Positions 17,603 to 32,025 of a stretch of DNA of 64,000 bases are shown here, piece by piece. The notes below the pieces were generated by a model. That model was not told the origin of the DNA, did no database searches, and saw only the letters and a program-made list of their open reading frames with translations. The stretch is from Solidesulfovibrio alcoholivorans DSM 5433 (GTDB taxonomy: Bacteria > Desulfobacterota > Desulfovibrionia > Desulfovibrionales > Desulfovibrionaceae), in NCBI RefSeq assembly GCF_000702665.1, contig NZ_JNJA01000002.1, forward strand, positions 310,001 through 374,000, given 5' to 3'. Each line of letters opens with the position of its first letter. Position 1 is the stretch's first letter. The position numbers and the translations under genes are program-made.

Positions 17603-17698
17603 CAAAAGGAATCGGCGCGCGACGGCTGCGCGGGGGCATTCCCCCTGCGTCCCTGACCCGTCGGGGGGCCGCGAGGCCCCCGGCGGTTGGAAGGCTTC

Positions 17699-19366
17699 TT
17701 GAGCGAAAAAACGCGGGCCAAGGTGTATTTCGGGCTGGACAGGCCCGAGACGCGGGACTTCGGGGGACGGCTCCCCATAGCCCTGGCCGTCCCCGGCGAC
17801 GCCGCCCTGGCCCTCTCGGCGCTCGGCTGGCAGGCCGCCTGGCGGCTGCTCGCCGAAAACCCCGCCCTGGCCGTGGAACGCGTGTTCTGCCGCCCGGGCC
17901 GGCCACCCGTGGCCGAGGATTCGGGCCTCCCCCTGGCCCGCTTCCCGGTGGTCGCCTTTTCGCTGTGCTACGAAGAAGACTACCTGCCCGTGGCCGCCGC
18001 ACTGGCCGCGGCGGAAATCCCCCTCACGTCCGAGGCGCGGCCCGACTTTCCCATCGTCATGGGAGGCGGGCCGCTCTCTTTTATCAACCCTGCGCCCATC
18101 CTGCCGGTGCTCGACCTGCTTTTCGTCGGCGAGGCCGAGGCCGGGCTCGCCGCCGTCATGGACCGGCTGCGCCGTGAGGCCCTGGCCGGCGCGGACAAGG
18201 CCGCCTGCCTCGCCGCCGTGGCCGACATGCCGGGCGTGCTCGTGCCCGGGCGTACGAAAACCCCGGTCGCTCGCGTCGTGGCGCACTGCGCGGACGCGCC
18301 GGGACTGCTCGCCGACCCCGTCCATTCCTGCTTCGTCTCCGGCCACGCCGCCTTCCGCGACATGTTCCTCGTCGAGGTCAACCGGGGCTGTCCCTACGGC
18401 TGCCGCTTCTGCGCCGCGGGCTACGTCTACCGCCCTCCCAGGCAGGCGCGCCTTCGTGATTTGCAGGCGCTTGTCGAGGACGTCTCCCCGCGCAAGGTCG
18501 GGCTCGTGGGCACGGCGCTCACGGACTGGCCCGACCTGCTGCCCTTTTTGCATTGGCTGAGAAAGCGCGGCACGAAATTCTCCCTGTCCTCCATCCGCGC
18601 CGACGGCGTGACCCCGGAGCTGCTCGCCGTCCTGCGCGAGGCCGGCCTGCGCACCCTCACGCTCGCCCTCGAAGCCCCGAGCGAACGCCTGCGCCGCGCC
18701 GCCAACAAGCATCTGTCCGTGGAGGCTCTGTTGCGCGCCGTCTCCCTGGCCGGCAAACACGGCGTGAACCACCTCAAATTCTACCTGATCGTCGGCTGGC
18801 CCGGGGAAACCGAAGAGGATTTCACATCCCTTGCGCCGCTGCTGCGCGAAGTCGCCGCGTCCGCCTCCATCGGTGTGGGCAAGCGCGGTGTGGCCCACGC
18901 CACGCTTTCGGTCAATCCCCTCGTCCCCAAACCCTTTACGCCCATGCAATGGGCGCCCATGGCCTCCGAAGCGGCCATCGAAGCGGCCTACGCCTCTGTG
19001 CGCGCCGCGGCCAAGCCGCTCAAGGGCTTCAAGGTGGAAGTGGAAAACGCCTCCGCCGCGCGCATGCAAGGCCTCCTCGCGCGCGGCGACGCCGCTCTTT
19101 TCCCGCTCATCGAACAGGCCGTCGCCGCCGGGAGCTTCCGCCGCGCGCTCAAATCCTGGGACGGCGACATCGCCGCCTACCTCGACCGCGAACGCCCCCG
19201 TGACGAGGCCTTCCCCTGGGACGTCGTCGATATTGGCGTCTCGCGCGACTTTCTCTGGCGCGAATGGGAGCGCTACCGCGACGGCGTGCCCACGGCCAAA
19301 TGCCCGCCTGCCGGTTGCGGCGATTGCCGGCGCTGCGGGATTTACGCCTTCCCGGGGAAAGGATAA
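17699..19366 (+). CDS. Radical SAM protein, uncharacterised
   Basis: This roughly 555-aa protein has a CX3CX2C cluster (CPYGCRFC near residue 230), the radical SAM [4Fe-4S] site. The N-terminal third (VVAFSLCYEEDYLPVAAAL, IVMGGGPLSFINP) resembles the cobalamin-binding-like domain that precedes many such enzymes; no clear cobalamin-binding motif is visible. Four cysteines cluster at the C-terminus (CPPAGCGDCRRC) and may bind a second cluster or zinc. Start is TTG 17699 with GGAAGG just upstream; TTG 17687 is an alternative. The substrate is unknown. Confidence 0.75.
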   Translation: MSEKTRAKVYFGLDRPETRDFGGRLPIALAVPGDAALALSALGWQAAWRLLAENPALAVERVFCRPGRPPVAEDSGLPLARFPVVAFSLCYEEDYLPVAAALAAAEIPLTSEARPDFPIVMGGGPLSFINPAPILPVLDLLFVGEAEAGLAAVMDRLRREALAGADKAACLAAVADMPGVLVPGRTKTPVARVVAHCADAPGLLADPVHSCFVSGHAAFRDMFLVEVNRGCPYGCRFCAAGYVYRPPRQARLRDLQALVEDVSPRKVGLVGTALTDWPDLLPFLHWLRKRGTKFSLSSIRADGVTPELLAVLREAGLRTLTLALEAPSERLRRAANKHLSVEALLRAVSLAGKHGVNHLKFYLIVGWPGETEEDFTSLAPLLREVAASASIGVGKRGVAHATLSVNPLVPKPFTPMQWAPMASEAAIEAAYASVRAAAKPLKGFKVEVENASAARMQGLLARGDAALFPLIEQAVAAGSFRRALKSWDGDIAAYLDRERPRDEAFPWDVVDIGVSRDFLWREWERYRDGVPTAKCPPAGCGDCRRCGIYAFPGKG

Positions 19367-19388: not shown

Positions 19389-20003
19389 ATGACGCTTCCC
19401 CTCTACCTCGCCTTCGTCGCGGCAGCGTCCCTGCTGCTCGTTTTCCCCGGCCCCACCGTGCTCATGGTCATCGGCTACGGCCTCGCCGAAGGCCGCAAAT
19501 CGGTCTGGTCCCTCGTGGCCGGCGTGTGCCTGGGCGATGCCGTGGCCTGCGCCGGCTCCCTGGCCGGACTTGGTGCGGTGCTCTCCGCCTCGGCCGCCGC
19601 CTTCACCATGGTCAAGGCCGTGGGCGCGCTCTACCTCGTCTGGCTCGGCATCGGCATGCTGCGCGCCGGTGACGCCTCGGCCGTCGCCCCGGCCTCGTGC
19701 CCGGCCGGACGCAAATTCGTCCACGCCTTTACCGTGACGCTGCTCAATCCCAAGACCATCCTCTTTTTCGTCGCCTTCCTGCCCCAGTTCGTCAGCCCCT
19801 CGGCCCCGGCCCTGCCGCAACTCCTTCTTCTCGGTGCGACCTTTGTCATCCTCGGTGCGTGCAACACCGCCGCCTACGCGACCCTCTCCGGCAGCGTCGG
19901 CGGCCGTATCCGCGACCCGCGCTTCGTGGGCCGCCTGCGCCGCGTGGGCGGCGGCGCGCTCATCGGCGCGGGGGTCATGACGGCGGTCGCGACGAGGCGG
20001 TAG
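19389..20003 (+). CDS. LysE/RhtB-family exporter
   Basis: A 204-aa inner-membrane protein with about six helices. It carries the N-terminal family motif FPGPTVLMVIGYGLAEGRK and the mid-protein NPKTILFFVAFLPQF, both typical of LysE/RhtB amino-acid exporters. Substrate cannot be assigned. ATG 19389 has AAAGGAG at 19376-19382. It starts 22 nt after the radical SAM gene and is probably cotranscribed with it. It converges with the response regulator at 20200. Confidence 0.88.
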   Translation: MTLPLYLAFVAAASLLLVFPGPTVLMVIGYGLAEGRKSVWSLVAGVCLGDAVACAGSLAGLGAVLSASAAAFTMVKAVGALYLVWLGIGMLRAGDASAVAPASCPAGRKFVHAFTVTLLNPKTILFFVAFLPQFVSPSAPALPQLLLLGATFVILGACNTAAYATLSGSVGGRIRDPRFVGRLRRVGGGALIGAGVMTAVATRR

Positions 20004-20199: not shown

Positions 20200-21602
20200 T
20201 CACCGGTACCCCTCAGCCGCGATGCCCAATCGCCGCAGGATCTTCTGGAGCGACACCCGTTCCAGCCCGGACAGCCGGGCGGCTTCGGAGACGTTGCCGC
20301 GCGTCTGGCCGAGCAGGCGTTCGACGTAGCGGCGGGTGAAGGCGTCGACGACGCGGGCTTTGGCTTCGAGGTAGGGCGCGGCCATGCCGGCTTCGTCGTC
20401 GCCGTCGATGGGGTCGGACTGGTCGGGGTCGGCGGTGGCCACGGCCTTGGGGCCGATGACGTCGCCGCGGCAGAAGACGGTGAGGCGGCGCACGAAGTTG
20501 AAGAGTTCGCGCACGTTGCCGGGCCAGTCCCGACCGGCGAGGGCGGCGAGGGCTTCGGCGGAGAATTCCTTTTCGCCGATGCCTGTTTCGCGGCAGGCGC
20601 GCGAGAGGAAGGCCGTGGCGAGCAACGGGATGTCTTCGCGGCGTTCGCGAAGGGGCGGCATGCGCACGGTGAGCACGTTAAGGCGGTAGTAGAGGTCTTC
20701 GCGGAAGGATTTGTCGGCGATCTTGGCTTCGAGGTCCTGGTTGGTGGAGGCGAGGATGCGCACGTCGATGGGCGTGGATTTGCTCGAGCCCACGGGGCGG
20801 ACTTCGCGTTCCTGGAGCACGCGCAGGAGTTTGGTCTGCACGCTCATGGGGATGTCGCCGATTTCGTCGAGCACGATGACGCCGCCGTTGGCGGACTGGA
20901 ACAGGCCGCGCCGGTCGCGTTCGGCTCCGGTGAAGGCCCCGCGCACGTGGCCGAAGAGTTCGCTTTCGAGCAACTGGTCCGGGATGGCCGGGCAGTTGAC
21001 GGAAAGAAACGGGCCGGCGGCACGCCGCGACAGGCTGTGTATGGCCCGGGCGGCGAGTTCCTTGCCCGTGCCGGATTCGCCGCGAATGAGCACGGTGTAG
21101 TCCGAGCCGGCCACGGCGGCGATGGCTTCCTTGACCTGCGCCATGGCCGGGGATTCGCCGAGGAGCCCGACGCTTGCGCCGCAGGCTTCGACCGCGGCGC
21201 GAAGACGCTGGTTTTCGCGAAGCAGCTCCGCCCGTTCCAGGCCCTTGGCGATGACCCGGGCCAGATGCTCGGAGTCCACGGGTTTGGTGAGGAAATCGTA
21301 GGCTCCGGCCTTGAGTGCGGCCACGGCCGTGTCGATGTCGCCGTGGGCCGTGAGGAGCACCACGCCCAGGCGCGGTTCCAGGGCGAGCGCCCGGGGCAGC
21401 AACTCCAGGCCTGAAATCCCGGGCATGCGCAGGTCCGTGACGAGCACGGCGCAGGGGCGCGCGGCGAGGTCTTCCAGGGCTGCCTCGCCGGAACAGACGT
21501 GGTCGAGCCGGGCTTCGGGGATTTTGGGCGCGAGCAGCCGGGTGAGCCCGCGGGCGAAGTCCGGCTGGTCGTCGACGATGAGCACGCGCGGCGCGGTTTC
21601 AT

Positions 21603-21606
<4 letters not shown>
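20200..21606 (-). CDS. Sigma-54-dependent response regulator (NtrC family)
   Basis: A 468-aa enhancer-binding regulator. The receiver domain has D12/D13, phospho-acceptor D58 and K108. The AAA+ domain has Walker A GESGTGKE and the sigma-54 contact loop GAFTGA. The C-terminal Fis-type helix-turn-helix is near 430-465 (GNVSEAARLSGLERVSLQ). Its ATG overlaps the stop of the kinase gene (ATGA), so the two are translated together and form one phosphorelay. The likely target is the divergent exporter operon, which has a sigma-54 promoter and a palindromic site (inference). Confidence 0.93.
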
Positions 21607-24068
<2,462 letters not shown>

Positions 24069-24133
24069 GGCCCCTCCCCTTACCTTCTTTTTGGTGCGGA
24101 AGCGTGGAAAACGCAATGCGAACGCCGGGATGC

Positions 24134-24159
24134 GAGGTGCTAACTCGAGTTTGCACCTC
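24134..24159. promoter_or_regulatory. 26-bp near-perfect palindrome, likely enhancer site
   Basis: GAGGTGC (24134-24140) and GCACCTC (24153-24159) are exact complements. The centre, AACTCGAGTT (24142-24151), is itself a perfect palindrome. Only the symmetric pair 24141/24152 is mismatched. It lies about 60 nt upstream of the sigma-54 -24 element, a usual place for an NtrC-type activator dimer. Also covers the 419-bp gap 24069-24487 together with the promoter entry; no gene is seen in that gap. Confidence 0.65.
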
Positions 24160-24217
24160 TGGTCGAGCCTGAAAAAAACATCTTGTTATCCCGGCATGTT
24201 GCTCTCTCTCGTAAAAG

Positions 24218-24233
24218 TGGTCCCGGACTTGCT
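24218..24233 (+). promoter_or_regulatory. Sigma-54 (-24/-12) promoter of the exporter operon
   Basis: TGGTCCCGGACTTGCT fits the -24/-12 consensus TGGCAC-N5-TTGCT: GG and GC are separated by exactly 10 nt, with one base off in the TGGCAC half. Transcription would start near 24245, leaving a leader of about 240 nt before the exporter ATG. The adjacent two-component genes encode a sigma-54 activator, which makes a chance match less likely. Confidence 0.7.
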
Positions 24234-24487
24234 TAAAGGGGCAGCGGGGACACGGGTCCCTGCGGCGGCGTCGGTTTCGGGGAGGGAATTCCCGGGCGAA
24301 GCGCCGGCCGGACTGACAAGGGAGGACGGAGCGAACGCGGGCCGCCGCCGTGGCGCGGCCTTGCGGGAGCGATCGGCGCGGCATGGCGGCCGTCCCGACG
24401 GGCCTTGGGAGAGCGCCTGCGGGAAGGGCGCGCGGTGCGGGCGGTCGCGGCACGGCTGCGTCATCGTCAACGCAAAAGGAGGGAGTC

Positions 24488-25927
24488 ATGGCGGAAAAAA
24501 AATGGCTTACGGAAGACAAGCTGGCCCTTATCCTGGGGCTTGTCCTTTTCGGCTTGTCGCTATTCAACTTCGGCGGCGTGGATCCGCTCGGCTGGGCCGT
24601 CAAGTCGAACGTCTGGATCGAGCCGGGCCAGATGTTCTCGGCGGCCACGGGCGCCTATAAGGGCATGTCCGGGGTGCTTTCGCTCATCCTGACCTGGATT
24701 TTCGTCACCGTGATCCTGGCGTTCGGCATCAAGGCCCTGGGCGGCGATCCGAAACGTTTCATGGTGAGTTTTTCGCTGGTGTTCTTCATCGGCTTTTTCT
24801 GCTTCGCCCTGGGCCACTACGCGACCATCGCGGCCACGCCCAACCAGCTCGCGAAGTACAACCTCAAGTGGGCCATGGGCCTGACCGGCGAGGCGGGATT
24901 CATCATCGCGCTTTTGGTCGGCATCTTCATCGGCAACTTCATGCCGGGGCTGGCCGAAAAGCTGAAGCCCGCGCTGAAGCCCGAGATGTTCGTCAAGATC
25001 GCCATCGTCATCCTCGGCGCGGAACTCGGCGTCAAGTCCGTGGACGCCCTGGGCCTGGCTTCCTCGGTCATCTTCCGGGGCCTTTGCGCCATCGTCGAAG
25101 CGTACCTGATCTACTGGGCTCTGGTTTATTACATCTCCCGGAAATACTTCAAGTTCAGCCGTGAATGGGCGGCTCCGCTCGCTTCCGGCATTTCCATCTG
25201 CGGCGTTTCCGCCGCCATCGCCACCGGTGGCGCGATCCGCGCCCGGCCCATCGTCCCGATCATGGTTTCCTCCCTGGTCGTCGTGTTCACCTGCGTGGAA
25301 ATGCTGATCCTGCCCTTCGTCGCCCAGCACTGGATGTACGGCGAGCCCATGGTGGCCGGCGCGTGGATGGGGCTGGCCGTCAAGTCCGACGGCGGCGCCA
25401 TCGCCTCCGGCGTCATCACCGACGCGCTGATCCGCGCCCAGGCCCTGGCCGCGGACGGCATCAAGTACCAGGAAGGCTGGGTGACCATGGCGGCCACCAC
25501 GATCAAGATCTTCATCGACGTCTTCATCGGCGTGTGGGCCTTCATCCTGGCCGCCATCTGGTGTACGATGATCGAGTGCAAGCCCGGCGAGCGCATGAAG
25601 TTCGGCGCGATCCTCGACCGCTTCCCGCGCTTCGTGCTCGGCTACGTCATCACCTTCATCATCATGCTGGTCCTTTGCGCCAAGGGCGGCGATATGCTGA
25701 AGTTCGGCAAGACCGCCATCGGCGACACCGGCCCCTTCCGGGCCATCTTCTTCGTGCTGACGTTTTTCACCATCGGCGTGGTGTCCAACTTCAAGAAGCT
25801 GTGGGATGAGGGCATCGGCCGTCTGGCCCTGGTCTATATCGTGAGCCTTTTCGGCTTCATCATCTGGATCGGGCTGTTCATCTCCTGGCTGTTCTTCCAT
25901 GGCGTCAAGCCGCCCCTGGCTTCCTAG
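24488..25927 (+). CDS. YeiH-family putative sulfate exporter
   Basis: A 479-aa polytopic inner-membrane protein with about twelve helices. Conserved-looking blocks include EMFVKIAIVILGAELGVKSV, SGISICGVSAAIATGGAI and AVKSDGGAIASGVITDAL, typical of the UPF0324/YeiH group annotated as putative sulfate exporters. Biochemical function of the family is poorly established. ATG 24488 follows AAAGGAGGGA. The 57-aa gene downstream shares its transcript, and a sigma-54 promoter lies upstream, so expression is probably controlled by the divergent kinase-regulator pair. Confidence 0.85.
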   Translation: MAEKKWLTEDKLALILGLVLFGLSLFNFGGVDPLGWAVKSNVWIEPGQMFSAATGAYKGMSGVLSLILTWIFVTVILAFGIKALGGDPKRFMVSFSLVFFIGFFCFALGHYATIAATPNQLAKYNLKWAMGLTGEAGFIIALLVGIFIGNFMPGLAEKLKPALKPEMFVKIAIVILGAELGVKSVDALGLASSVIFRGLCAIVEAYLIYWALVYYISRKYFKFSREWAAPLASGISICGVSAAIATGGAIRARPIVPIMVSSLVVVFTCVEMLILPFVAQHWMYGEPMVAGAWMGLAVKSDGGAIASGVITDALIRAQALAADGIKYQEGWVTMAATTIKIFIDVFIGVWAFILAAIWCTMIECKPGERMKFGAILDRFPRFVLGYVITFIIMLVLCAKGGDMLKFGKTAIGDTGPFRAIFFVLTFFTIGVVSNFKKLWDEGIGRLALVYIVSLFGFIIWIGLFISWLFFHGVKPPLAS

Positions 25928-25962
25928 CACAGCCGGGTCAAACCATACGCAAGGAGGCCTGC

Positions 25963-26136
25963 ATGGAACCTGAAAAGAAAGACGCGACGTTTTCCGAAGA
26001 GCTCTCGAAAATGGAATGGGAACCGCTCATGCCCATCGAGAAGAAGCTCATCGCCTGGAGCCTCGGCCTGGGCACGGCGCTGCTGTTCATCCTTTACTAC
26101 GTCAGCGGCGTGTTCTTCCCCGGCGCGCACGGCTAG
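25963..26136 (+). CDS. Small single-helix membrane protein of the exporter operon
   Basis: A 57-aa protein beginning MEPEKKDATFSEELSK. An acidic/amphipathic cytosolic N-terminus of about 28 residues is followed by one membrane helix at about 30-51 (KLIAWSLGLGTALLFILYY). ATG 25963 has a consensus AAGGAGG at 25951-25957. It starts 35 nt after the exporter and is followed at once by a strong terminator, so it is the last gene of the operon. I do not recognise a family; an accessory subunit or stability factor for the exporter is inferred. Confidence 0.8.
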   Translation: MEPEKKDATFSEELSKMEWEPLMPIEKKLIAWSLGLGTALLFILYYVSGVFFPGAHG

Positions 26137-26159
26137 GCGCAACGACCACGCGAATAACG

Positions 26160-26189
26160 AACGGGCGGTCCGAAAGGACCGCCCGTTTT
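26160..26189 (+). terminator. Intrinsic terminator of the exporter operon
   Basis: A perfect 12-bp stem (AACGGGCGGTCC / GGACCGCCCGTT) is closed by a GAAA tetraloop, with TT continuing the T-run to 26189. It lies 24 nt after the 57-aa gene. Confidence 0.9.
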
Positions 26190-28500: not shown

Positions 28501-31500
28501 ATGTCGGAGCGAACGCCTCATATATCCCTGCCCCTCGAACGCCTTGTGCCGCGGGTCCTCGACATCAGCCCCGAGGAACTCGATTCCTGGCCCGAGGACG
28601 CGCGAAACCTCGCCGTGGCCGTGGCCGCCGAACTTTTTCTCGTGCGCGCCAATCCCTTCATCAAGCCCGACGACGTCAAGGCCTCGGTGGAAAAACGCCT
28701 CGCCGAAGCCAACCCCAAGGCCTGGGGCGACTATCCCCGCACCATTCGCAGGGCCTACAAGGCCTTTTGGGACGTGTTCGAGGCGGACAAGCGCTTTCGC
28801 GACAATCTGGTCGAACGCCTGCGCCAGTTCCTGCCGGCAGAGGATGTGGTCACCGCGGCGCACTCCCTGGTCGAGTGTTCCACGGACGCCACGGACCTGC
28901 GCATGGAGATCCCGCTGTGCATGCTCCTGCCCGAGTCGGCCGAGCATATCCGCCATATTCTGCGCCTGGCCAACGAGCTGGAATTCGCCGTCATCCCGCG
29001 CGGCGGCGGTTCGGGCCTGACCGGCGGCGCCGTGCCGGCGCACCGCCGCTCGGTGATCCTGAGCCTTTCGAAATTCAAGAAGATCATTTCCGTCGACACG
29101 GAAGCCAGGACGCTTTGCGCCCAGACCGGCGTCATCACCATGAAGGCCATCAAGGCCGCCGAGGCCAAGGGCCTGCTCTTCACCGTGGACCCGGCCTCCA
29201 AGGCCGCGTCGTCGCTTGGCGGCAATATCGCCGAGAACGCCGGCGGACCCTTCGCCTTTGAATACGGCACCACGCTCGACAACATCATCAGTTACAAGAT
29301 GGTCGAGGCCACGGGCGAGATCATCGAGGTGCGCCGGGTGGACCACCCGCGCCACAAGATCCGTCCCGACGAGACGGCCGTGTTCGAGGTGCTCGACGGC
29401 GAGGGCGCGGTGCGCGACGTCATAAGCCTGCCCGGCGACCAGATCCGGGCGAAGGACCTGGGCAAGGACGTCTCCAACAAGTACCTCGGCGGCCTGCCCG
29501 GCGTGCAGAAGGAAGGCGTGGACGGCATCATCACCGAGGCCTGCTTCGCGCTTTATCCGATCCCCAAGTATTCGCGCACGCTGTGCCTGGAATTTTTCGG
29601 CCGCTCCATGAAGAACGCCATGTGCGTCATCCGCGACGTGGTGGGCCTGCGCAACCGCATCCGCGAAGAAGGCGACGCGGTCAAGATTTCCGCGCTGGAG
29701 GAGTTCAACTCCAAGTACGTACGGGCCATCAACTACGTGAAGAAGTCCTCGCTCTACGAGGGCGACCCCATTTCCGTGCTGCTGCTCCAGCTCGACTCCG
29801 ACGACGAGGACGCGCTCATGCGCGCCGCGGCCGACATCGTGGACATCGTCGATCCCTACGACAATGTGGACGTGTTCGAGGCCAAGGACGCCAAGACCGC
29901 GGAACTGTACTGGGAGGACCGGCACAAGCTCTCGGCCATCTCCAGGCGCACCTCGGGCTTCAAGATCAACGAGGACGTGGTCATCCCGCTGTCCGTCGTG
30001 CCGGAGTTCGCCGAATTCCTGGAGGACTTGAACCTCCACTGCATCGCCCATGCCTACCGCACGGCCCTGCAAAACGCCGGCCGGCTGCCCGGCATCCCGG
30101 CTTCGGACGAATTCATCGCCATGGAGCTGGAATTTTGCGACCGCGTGCTGCGCGGGCGCATCACGGGCCGGGACCTGTCCGACTCGGAAGTGGAGATGCA
30201 GACCTACTACTTCTTCACGGACCTCGCCGCGCGCTATCCCCGGCTCAAGGACCGCCTCGCCGCCATCCACGCCGACCTTGCCGCCACGCGCATCGAGGTG
30301 GCGAGCCACATGCACGCGGGCGACGGCAACTGCCACGTGAACATCCCGGTCAATTCCAACGACCCCGAGATGATGCGGCAAGCCTGGGAGGCGGCGGAAA
30401 AGGTCTTCGAGAAGGTCACCCAGCTCGGCGGCGCGGTCTCGGGCGAACACGGCATTGGCATCACCAAGATCGCGTTCCTCGCCGAGGCCAAGATCGAGGC
30501 CCTGCGCGCCTACAAGAAACGCGTGGACCCCAAGGGCCTCATCAACCCGGGCAAGCTGACCACGCGCGAGTTGGCCGTCGAGCCCTACACCTTTTCGTTT
30601 AACCGCTTGATCCGCGACATCAAGAAGACGGCGTTACCCGACAAGGATACGCTGATTTCGATTCTAAGCGGCATCCAGTTCTGCAACCGCTGCGGCAAGT
30701 GCAAGCAGGTCTGCCCGATGTTCGCGCCGGAATACGGGATGCTCTATCATCCGCGTAACAAGAACATCGCCCTTGGCGCGATTATAGAGGCCATCTACTA
30801 TTCCCAGATCGCGCATGGCGAGCCCGATCCGGCGCTGCTCGACAAGCTGCGCGGCATCATCGACCACTGCACGGCCTGCGGCAAGTGCACGGGCGTGTGT
30901 TCGGTGAAGATCGAGTCCGGCAAGGTGGCGCTGGGGCTGCGCAATTTCCTGGACCAGCAGGGCTGCGGCGGGCATCCCATCAAGCACAAGGTCCTGTCGT
31001 ACCTGGTCGAGGACGTGTCCGACCGCGCGCCCAGGGCGGCCAAGCTCGCGGCCTACGGCCAGCAGTTCCACAACAAGGCCATGCCGCTTCTGCCGCGCTT
31101 CTGGCGCGACCGCATCGAGAACCCGGCCCTGCGCGGCCCCAACCCGTCCATCGGGCTGCGCAATCTCTCCGAGCGGCTGGACCTGGACAAGGGTTCCATC
31201 TTCATCCCCAAGGAGGGGCGCGAGGCCCCCGAGACGGTGCTCTATTTTCCGGGCTGCGGCGCGTCGCTTTTTTCGAGCGCCATCGGCATGGCGGCGGTGC
31301 ATCTGCTGCTGCGGGCCGAGGTGGCGGTGCTCATCCCCCACCGGCATCTGTGCTGCGGTTATCCGCTGCTCGCCGCGGGCATGGGCGAGGAGTATCGCCG
31401 CAACCGCGAGCGCAACCGCGAGGCGCTGCGCGCGCTGCTCGAAGAGGCGGAGCAACTGGGGCTTTCGCCTTCCCACTGCCTGACGAGCTGCGGCACCTGC

Positions 31501-32025
31501 CGCGAGGCGCTGGAGGAACACGAACTCAAGACGTTGCGGCCGGACCTCGCGCACATGGATGTCACGCAGTTTCTGCTCGGCCGTCTGGATTTCCCGGCGT
31601 CGGGGGACACCACGCCGATCCTCTACCATGCCGCCTGCCACTGCGAGTGGGCCGACGTGCCGAAGAACAAGGCCACGGGTATGTACATGGCGGCCCTGCG
31701 CAAGGTCACGGGCCGGCCTGTGGAGCTTTCGCCCAACTGCTGCGGCGAGTCCGGCATGGGGGCGATGACCACGCCCGCCATCTACAACCGGATTCGCGAG
31801 CGCAAGCGCGTCACGCTGGCCGAGAACCTGGCCGACGCGCCGGAAACGATGCCGATCCTGGTCGGCTGCCCGTCGTGCAAGATGGGCATCAACCGCATCC
31901 TTGCGGAGCTGCGCGACAAGCATCCGGTGCTGCACACGCTCGAGTACCTGGCCGAGGCGCTGGACGGCCCCAAGTGGAAGAAACTGCTGAAAAAAAATGT
32001 CAAGGACGCCCGCGTGCGCGGCTAG
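28501..32025 (+). CDS. FAD-linked/iron-sulfur oxidoreductase, D-lactate dehydrogenase type
   Basis: A 1174-aa fusion. The N-terminal half is a GlcD-type FAD domain with IPRGGGSGLTGGAVPA near residue 165, plus HMHAGDGNCHVN and GEHGIG in the C-terminal cap. Two 4Fe-4S sites follow: C728/C731/C734/C738 and C790/C793/C796/C800. The last 350 residues contain two CCG-type cysteine modules (YFPGCGASLFS, CCGYPL; YHAACHCEW, CCGESGMG, GCPSCK). This layout fits a one-polypeptide 2-hydroxyacid dehydrogenase passing electrons from FAD to a membrane or soluble acceptor; D-lactate is the likeliest substrate in this group. Confidence 0.88.
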   Translation: MSERTPHISLPLERLVPRVLDISPEELDSWPEDARNLAVAVAAELFLVRANPFIKPDDVKASVEKRLAEANPKAWGDYPRTIRRAYKAFWDVFEADKRFRDNLVERLRQFLPAEDVVTAAHSLVECSTDATDLRMEIPLCMLLPESAEHIRHILRLANELEFAVIPRGGGSGLTGGAVPAHRRSVILSLSKFKKIISVDTEARTLCAQTGVITMKAIKAAEAKGLLFTVDPASKAASSLGGNIAENAGGPFAFEYGTTLDNIISYKMVEATGEIIEVRRVDHPRHKIRPDETAVFEVLDGEGAVRDVISLPGDQIRAKDLGKDVSNKYLGGLPGVQKEGVDGIITEACFALYPIPKYSRTLCLEFFGRSMKNAMCVIRDVVGLRNRIREEGDAVKISALEEFNSKYVRAINYVKKSSLYEGDPISVLLLQLDSDDEDALMRAAADIVDIVDPYDNVDVFEAKDAKTAELYWEDRHKLSAISRRTSGFKINEDVVIPLSVVPEFAEFLEDLNLHCIAHAYRTALQNAGRLPGIPASDEFIAMELEFCDRVLRGRITGRDLSDSEVEMQTYYFFTDLAARYPRLKDRLAAIHADLAATRIEVASHMHAGDGNCHVNIPVNSNDPEMMRQAWEAAEKVFEKVTQLGGAVSGEHGIGITKIAFLAEAKIEALRAYKKRVDPKGLINPGKLTTRELAVEPYTFSFNRLIRDIKKTALPDKDTLISILSGIQFCNRCGKCKQVCPMFAPEYGMLYHPRNKNIALGAIIEAIYYSQIAHGEPDPALLDKLRGIIDHCTACGKCTGVCSVKIESGKVALGLRNFLDQQGCGGHPIKHKVLSYLVEDVSDRAPRAAKLAAYGQQFHNKAMPLLPRFWRDRIENPALRGPNPSIGLRNLSERLDLDKGSIFIPKEGREAPETVLYFPGCGASLFSSAIGMAAVHLLLRAEVAVLIPHRHLCCGYPLLAAGMGEEYRRNRERNREALRALLEEAEQLGLSPSHCLTSCGTCREALEEHELKTLRPDLAHMDVTQFLLGRLDFPASGDTTPILYHAACHCEWADVPKNKATGMYMAALRKVTGRPVELSPNCCGESGMGAMTTPAIYNRIRERKRVTLAENLADAPETMPILVGCPSCKMGINRILAELRDKHPVLHTLEYLAEALDGPKWKKLLKKNVKDARVRG

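Follow-up and report, generated by a model that had tools for sequence, protein, structure and literature searches.

The 64,000-nt stretch of the Solidesulfovibrio alcoholivorans DSM 5433 genome analyzed here (positions 310,001 to 374,000 of contig NZ_JNJA01000002.1; called the window below, with coordinates counted from its first letter) contains a sensor histidine kinase and an NtrC-type response regulator encoded divergently from a transporter of family PF03601 (putative sulfate exporter, PSE) and a membrane protein of 57 aa. It is quite probable that the kinase, which carries a heme-Cache domain, and the regulator switch on the transporter and its small partner through a palindrome and a sigma-54 promoter in the gap, that they respond to a redox or gas signal, and that a sulfur oxyanion is moved, probably outward. 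Directly visible in the DNA are the gene content, the heme motif, the phased arrangement of palindrome and promoter, the pairing of transporter and small protein, the linkage of such pairs to dsrAB and a second site of the same kind elsewhere in the genome. The circuit is a local copy of one that is widespread in the Desulfovibrionaceae.

In the proposed mechanism, a redox or gas signal, with nitric oxide (NO) as best candidate, would be read by the periplasmic c-type heme Cache domain and set the state of the kinase, which would in turn govern phosphorylation of the regulator. The latter would bind the 26-bp palindrome, reach sigma-54 polymerase some 80 bp further downstream on the same side of the helix and drive expression of the transporter and its small membrane partner; the palindrome may also be used by the kinase operon for autoregulation. 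The transporter and its partner would then move sulfite or a related sulfur oxyanion, probably outward, which would ease stress when dissimilatory sulfite reduction is blocked.

The phased palindrome and sigma-54 promoter

The intergenic region begins at position 24069, because the kinase gene starts with the ATG at 24068 (an in-frame TTG at 24116 would be a longer alternative start). Within it lies a 26-bp palindrome, GAGGTGCTAACTCGAGTTTGCACCTC (24134..24159; 12 of 13 pairs), the predicted enhancer site of the regulator; it is situated about 65 bp ahead of the kinase gene, and its core begins 80 bp before a -24/-12 sigma-54 promoter element, TGGTCCCGGACTTGCT (24218..24233, + strand; also given as TGGTCCCGGACTTGC, 24218-24232). 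The general consensus of sigma-54 promoters is GG-N10-GC; the element has it with conserved flanks, is itself conserved across relatives and is predicted to be active as a promoter. Taken singly, neither part stands out: the pattern TGG-N8-TTGC matches the window 13 times with 10.4 matches expected, which is not above chance, and a pattern derived from the palindrome has one match in the window and was found in 0 of 100 shuffles, which shows only that the palindrome is not a local repeat. Paired at 80 bp, the two are beyond chance, unlike either element alone.

A composite pattern of core and promoter has matches in 10 of the 14 Solidesulfovibrio genomes, and a variant in which the core was relaxed and the promoter tightened in 13 of the 14 and in 47 of 288 genomes of the family; reversed composite patterns had no match in the genomes listed. 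Only the bare-core and composite searches were run on whole genomes without preselection of loci, the composite-site and module loci having been selected for holding modules or pattern matches. A weight matrix was learned from 33 sites, none of them at loci of the long-form transporter (the form found in the window), and its consensus, nAGGTGCTAACTCGAGTTAGCACCTn, is almost identical to the palindrome of the window; since the training sites were selected by means of a strict core pattern that had originally been noticed at long-form loci, the core letters are partly imposed, and only the flanks (AGGTG), two inner positions and the centre were learned freely. Scanned with this matrix, 16 of the 17 long-form loci that have a regulator close by show the pair, and so do 6 of the 25 that have none close by, a pair being counted when no more than 1 of 100 shuffles was as good; the shuffles preserve base composition only, and the allowed spacings were fixed after first inspection of the sites, with the shuffles given equal freedom. 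As for the six loci with a pair and no regulator close by, one lies on a short contig (L050), three belong to genomes with the regulator elsewhere (L049, L051, L054) and two are weak (L059, L066). The earlier note on this DNA, written from the letters alone, had given the palindrome with exactly the coordinates above, had seen in it an enhancer next to a -24/-12 element and had proposed to look for it upstream of exporter orthologues; the footprint across relatives is positive, and it is as a pair that the two elements are supported.

A second set is made up of 80 named loci, which are the best 80 among 357 relatives, and partly repeats genomes of the family set. Here the pair was found in 10 of 15 loci with kinase and regulator and in 5 of 63 without, after one of 16 and one of 64 loci, respectively, had been dropped because the upstream stretch was too short. 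Throughout the 60 composite sites the spacing of palindrome and promoter falls at 78-83 bp (36 sites), 99-105 (14), 69-71 (4), 91-93 (3) or elsewhere (3), spacing having been limited in advance for the loci drawn from the family-wide composite search; these classes differ by approximately whole helical turns, which is what one would expect if an activator acts from an enhancer.

Several observations weigh against so uniform a picture. The bare core with one mismatch occurs at two places in the organism's own genome and at five for the reversed control; some of the 47 family genomes match only at places with no module gene nearby (L303-L305); and at L053, where kinase and regulator are both present, no pair precedes the long-form gene, an 11-of-14 site lying instead before a second PSE gene that stands upstream. 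The five named loci with kinase and regulator in which no pair was found (L159, L160, L164, L180, L208) are labelled, for example, Deltaproteobacteria or Desulfobulbus; a good -24/-12 element is retained at three (L159, L160, L164), with the palindrome absent. The palindrome is also weak in Nitratidesulfovibrio, where sites score 1.7-9.8 as compared to 31 in the window, and a member of the genus itself (L034) reaches just 6.2. Nevertheless, control by the regulator at the level of DNA, through palindrome and sigma-54, is very likely, judged from conservation and from analogy to the related regulators of Desulfovibrio vulgaris, for which DNA binding and promoter activation have been shown. The phased enhancer-promoter pair can serve as a footprint for locating the regulon in other genomes of the Desulfovibrionaceae.

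Related circuits and probable targets of the regulator

The earlier note had taken the circuit to be undescribed, which does not hold: DVU0943-0946 and DVU0539-0545 of D. vulgaris are of the same kind and come with DAP-chip (DNA affinity purification on chip), gel-shift and reporter data (PMC3333781, PMC4641369, PMC10102598; the cited papers are drawn on here, and below, in excerpt). Its parts list, heme-sensor kinase, sigma-54 activator and two-gene target operon, is borne out by domain matches and by the footprint. Rajeev et al. (2011) mapped DVU0539 and DVU0946 by DAP-chip and confirmed one shared motif by gel shift; the DVU0542 promoter is transcribed with both regulators, and orthologues and motifs were reported in all environmental Desulfovibrio spp., D. 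magneticus, which is of the window's apparent genus, being among the genomes screened (PMC3333781). The sigma-54 targets given by Kazakov et al. (2015) include DVU0943-0946, DVU2133-2132 and DVU0542-0545 (PMC4641369). The window shows one of the marks of a regulon of the DVU0946/DVU0539 type, namely the regulator and a site upstream of a PSE operon.

DVU0943-0946 of D. vulgaris Hildenborough resembles the window in that a sigma-54 two-component system belongs to the operon and a sigma-54 promoter is present, binding having been mapped there; it differs in that, judged from the published range and from relatives, it is one co-directional operon, whereas the genes of the window are divergent, and its orthology is likewise drawn through relatives. 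The layout implied by DVU0943-0946 is seen in Nitratidesulfovibrio loci (L038, L041-L045), where transporter, small protein, heme kinase and regulator follow each other in one direction. In DVU0539-0545, as in the window, the kinase-regulator pair is transcribed away from an operon that encodes a PSE transporter and a small protein with one helix, and the DVU0542 promoter was activated in E. coli; unlike that of the window, the operon has further genes for two universal-stress proteins and for a small protein of 133 aa (PMC10102598). The presumed counterparts of DVU0539-0545 (L086, L091) have a regulator 61-62% and a transporter 24% identical to those of the window. A difficulty for uniting these systems is that the two D. 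vulgaris kinases have been called not paralogous by Rajeev et al. (PMC3333781), which contrasts with the heme domain carried by the presumed counterparts of both.

The genes following the 60 composite sites encode a PF03601 transporter in 42 cases, a heme-Cache chemoreceptor in four, another chemoreceptor in one and a heme kinase in one; the remaining 12 are other, unlabelled or none. Two of these 12 encode split-Soret cytochrome c (L282:6765-7631+ and L287:6280-7143+; PDB 1h21, E 6e-99 and 8e-92), which is also the additional target of the DVU0946/0539 motif named for strains G20 and Miyazaki (PMC3333781); on this account the palindrome is tied to that motif, the two being compared by target and not by letters. 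In the fetched loci the regulator was found at 89 places, 84 of them with a heme kinase within 4 kb and 75 with a PF03601 transporter within 6.5 kb. Transporters of three groups occur, the long form, one about 28% and one about 22-25% identical to that of the window; in L073-L076, from four genomes of the genus, the kinase-regulator pair, 72-83% identical, faces a 369-aa PF03601 paralogue that is only 22-23% identical and not of the long form, as if the transporter partner had been exchanged. Beyond the heme kinase of four loci of one genus (L097:2704-3954-, L080, L084, L079) lies a gene for a 408-417 aa protein without Pfam match, preceded in L097 by a palindrome-promoter pair (91 bp).

In the organism's own genome, the composite pattern matches at two places, the window site and one on contig C9 (C9:84229-86333, corresponding to L243:7230-9333). 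There, the palindrome core with one mismatch stands 79 bp before a strong -24/-12 element, TGGTACGGTCCTTGCT, and the gene that follows encodes a 610-aa methyl-accepting chemotaxis protein with a Tll0287 heme domain. It is the promoter at a distance of 79 bp that supports this second site, the bare core being no rarer than its reversed control. The arrangement recurs before a heme-Cache chemoreceptor in four of the 14 Solidesulfovibrio genomes (L243, which is the organism's own, L280, L281 and L283), where the regulator appears to drive this chemoreceptor as a second target. The module had been called self-contained; compact it is, and because of the second palindrome-promoter pair it is probably not closed. 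The type of circuit is already known, and what seems to be new are mainly the small partner, the link to sulfite reduction and the chemoreceptor as second target.

The sensor kinase and its possible signal

The gene layout given in the earlier note (kinase with CXXCH, sigma-54 activator, divergent exporter and 57-aa reading frame) was recovered in full. The kinase (21603..24068, - strand) comprises a Tll0287/sCache_heme domain predicted to be periplasmic, a weak PAS match, HisKA and HATPase_c; the regulator, second gene of the pair (20200..21606, - strand), overlaps it by 4 bases, as calculated from the coordinates. The latter has the make-up of an NtrC-type enhancer-binding response regulator, in which a receiver is combined with a sigma-54 activator domain containing GAFTGA and with a Fis-type helix-turn-helix, the HTH_8 match being just above threshold (22.2 bits, cut-off 22). 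The N-terminal domain of the kinase matches PF11845 (Tll0287-like) with 125.4 bits (cut-off 24.1), and its best solved relative by sequence is Tll0287 itself (5b82, E 4e-6). Read in translation, the CXXCH motif for attachment of heme c is CLHCH (residues 164-168; 23565..23579, - strand); it is flanked by hydrophobic segments (residues 14-32 and about 212-237), and this arrangement by prediction places the domain carrying it in the periplasm. Together, profile match and motif make the kinase a member of the Tll0287/sCache_heme family, with heme attachment predicted from the motif. In the fetched loci all 80 distinct heme kinases adjoining a regulator have CXXCH, a count that is partly circular because the profile recognising them was built from copies bearing the motif. 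The genome encodes one PF03601 protein and has four PF11845 matches.

For the signal, the direction in which the kinase acts, the substrate and the direction of transport, one has to rely on inference. The sensors GSU0582 and GSU0935 are of the same sCache_heme (DUF3365/Tll0287) domain family and share the CXXCH with the kinase of the window, and sCache_heme domains fused to signalling modules have been found to behave like NO sensors (PMC12889525, a preprint). By analogy to these, nitric oxide is the best present candidate for the signal. A strong competitor, with not quite an even chance of being correct, is that oxygen or redox potential is what the domain responds to: a chemoreceptor of D. 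vulgaris, DcrA, whose periplasmic heme domain is of the c type, has been described as a sensor of redox potential and oxygen (PMC8396549), and the apparent second target of the regulator is a heme-Cache chemoreceptor, too. DcrA is likened to the sensor considered here by its c-type heme. Against this competitor, the purified sCache_heme proteins tested gave no stable oxygen complex, and for P. azotoformans the protein held NO as slowly as do established sensors of this gas (PMC12889525). No published sCache_heme sensor tied to a sigma-54-controlled PSE circuit came up in the literature search. As to polarity, a simple chain in which the signal activates the kinase and the kinase the exporter has to face the fact that DVU0540 appears to oppose its regulator DVU0539 (PMC10102598), and it may therefore be too simple.

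The transporter, its small partner and the likely substrate

The long-form transporter (479 aa; 24488..25927, + strand), identified by profile match and orthologues, scores 80 bits with PF03601 (gathering cut-off 24.5) and 39.3 bits with the YeiH model TIGR00698 (cut-off 232.6), so that "YeiH-type", as it had been called, is correct for the Pfam family and incorrect for the narrower model. Its structure model has a broad CPA/AT-type transporter fold, with the citrate symporter CitS among the closest matches (VIA-align, a re-examination of the Foldseek matches), and is in line with published PSE models (PMC8396727); about the substrate, the fold says nothing. In the subtype PSE_2, two N-terminal helices are added, the topology being one of 11 membrane helices plus two re-entrant ones (PMC8396727). 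Next to it is the gene for the 57-aa single-pass membrane protein (25963..26136, + strand), which has one hydrophobic stretch, no match in Pfam or NCBIfam and a family consensus including EE..xKMEYEPLxPxEKKLI. A gene of this family is found downstream of the long-form transporter in all 80 named loci, a number that says nothing on more distant relatives because only the best 80 of 357 are covered, and in all 42 long-form loci of the family set, the window included. The labels of the named loci, taken from their records and many of them those of metagenome bins, extend from Desulfovibrio to Moorella, Nitrospirae, Acidobacteria and Bacteroidetes. Only 16 of the 80 have the kinase-regulator pair; the small protein is consequently a partner of the transporter and not of the switch. 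The earlier note had regarded it as undescribed and was right as far as the excerpted literature goes, where the DVU0943 and DVU2133-2132 genes are named and the small gene is given no function; its pairing with the long-form transporter is seemingly new.

In 6 of the 80 named loci (L170, L171, L187, L193, L199, L204) dsrA and dsrB lie downstream of the transporter pair and on the same strand, at least 3 kb of downstream sequence being present at 62 of the 80; this linkage, too, is seemingly new. At five of the six the dsr genes were tested in NCBIfam and exceed the dsrA or dsrB cut-off; L171 (Moorella mulderi) has divergent dsrAB copies about 3 kb downstream, after a DsrK-like gene below its cut-off. 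In Salmonella, YeiH, a PF03601-type transporter with a divergent activator like that of the window, gives resistance to sulfite (PMC12880088); YeiE, unlike the regulator considered here, is of the LysR type and binds sulfite, and the excerpted text describes no heme kinase or sigma-54 system there. On the strength of dsrAB downstream and of the Salmonella phenotype, sulfite or a related sulfur oxyanion is most likely the substrate, rather than lactate. This has to be set against the frequency of the linkage, which is 6 of 80, and against the Desulfovibrionaceae loci themselves, in which no dsrAB was found. For the PSE and TSUP transporters under sigma-54 in D. vulgaris, "no data on substrate specificity" were stated (PMC4641369); a fitness study of 2023 found molybdate phenotypes for the DVU0539-0545 genes (PMC10102598).

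Transport is probably outward. Import of sulfite or another sulfur oxyanion for respiration would explain the linkage to dsrAB equally well, as supply of the reductase, and direction cannot be read from sequence; it is nonetheless the unlikely variant, as protection against sulfite by the PF03601 relative YeiH fits export better (PMC12880088), and induction through a stress-type heme sensor fits relief. Somewhat less credit still can be given to the idea that the circuit belongs to lactate or pyruvate utilisation, the transporter moving an organic acid or serving carbon metabolism. It is true that earlier work placed the PSE targets of DVU0946 and DVU0539 with lactate metabolism (PMC4641369) and that the lactate operon DVU3025-3033 and the permease DVU2451 are further targets of DVU0539 (PMC3333781), which speaks against a circuit devoted to sulfur oxyanions; in the window, the gene of an FAD-linked oxidase that includes Fe-S and cysteine-rich domains comes next at 28501, and CitS is among the nearest folds; fold similarity, however, shows no substrate, the two palindrome-promoter pairs of the genome precede the transporter and a chemoreceptor, and it is dsrAB that lies downstream of the transporter pair in the six loci. 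That palindrome and promoter-like element are accidental, or are used by the kinase operon for nothing but its own autoregulation, would agree with the chance-level counts of either element alone, the position of the palindrome about 65 bp from the kinase start and the apparent autoregulation of both D. vulgaris regulators (PMC3333781), but is highly improbable given the composite matches with none for the reversed control and the pair kept upstream of transporters even in co-directional operons where no kinase gene faces them (L041-L045).

If, as preferred here, a heme-sensing switch controls export of a sulfur oxyanion, dsrAB linkage, constant small partner and heme sensor together provide a testable hypothesis on substrate and signal of PSE transporters in sulfate reducers. 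More tentatively, the long-form transporter and the small protein might be the two obligate subunits of a transporter for sulfite, or for sulfur oxyanions, that belongs to dissimilatory sulfite metabolism in different phyla, with one regulator in Solidesulfovibrio controlling both efflux and a chemoreceptor that bears the same heme sensor domain; a compound that poisons sulfite reductase, nitric oxide for instance, would then trigger detoxification and escape together.

The oxidase mentioned above is a 1174-aa FAD-linked protein fused to 4Fe-4S and cysteine-rich domains (28501-32025, + strand; PF01565, PF02913, Fer4_8, CCG), which we take to resemble respiratory lactate/glycolate dehydrogenases. 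On the other side of the module, a radical SAM protein (17687-19366, + strand) is encoded, followed by a LysE-type exporter (19392-20003, + strand).

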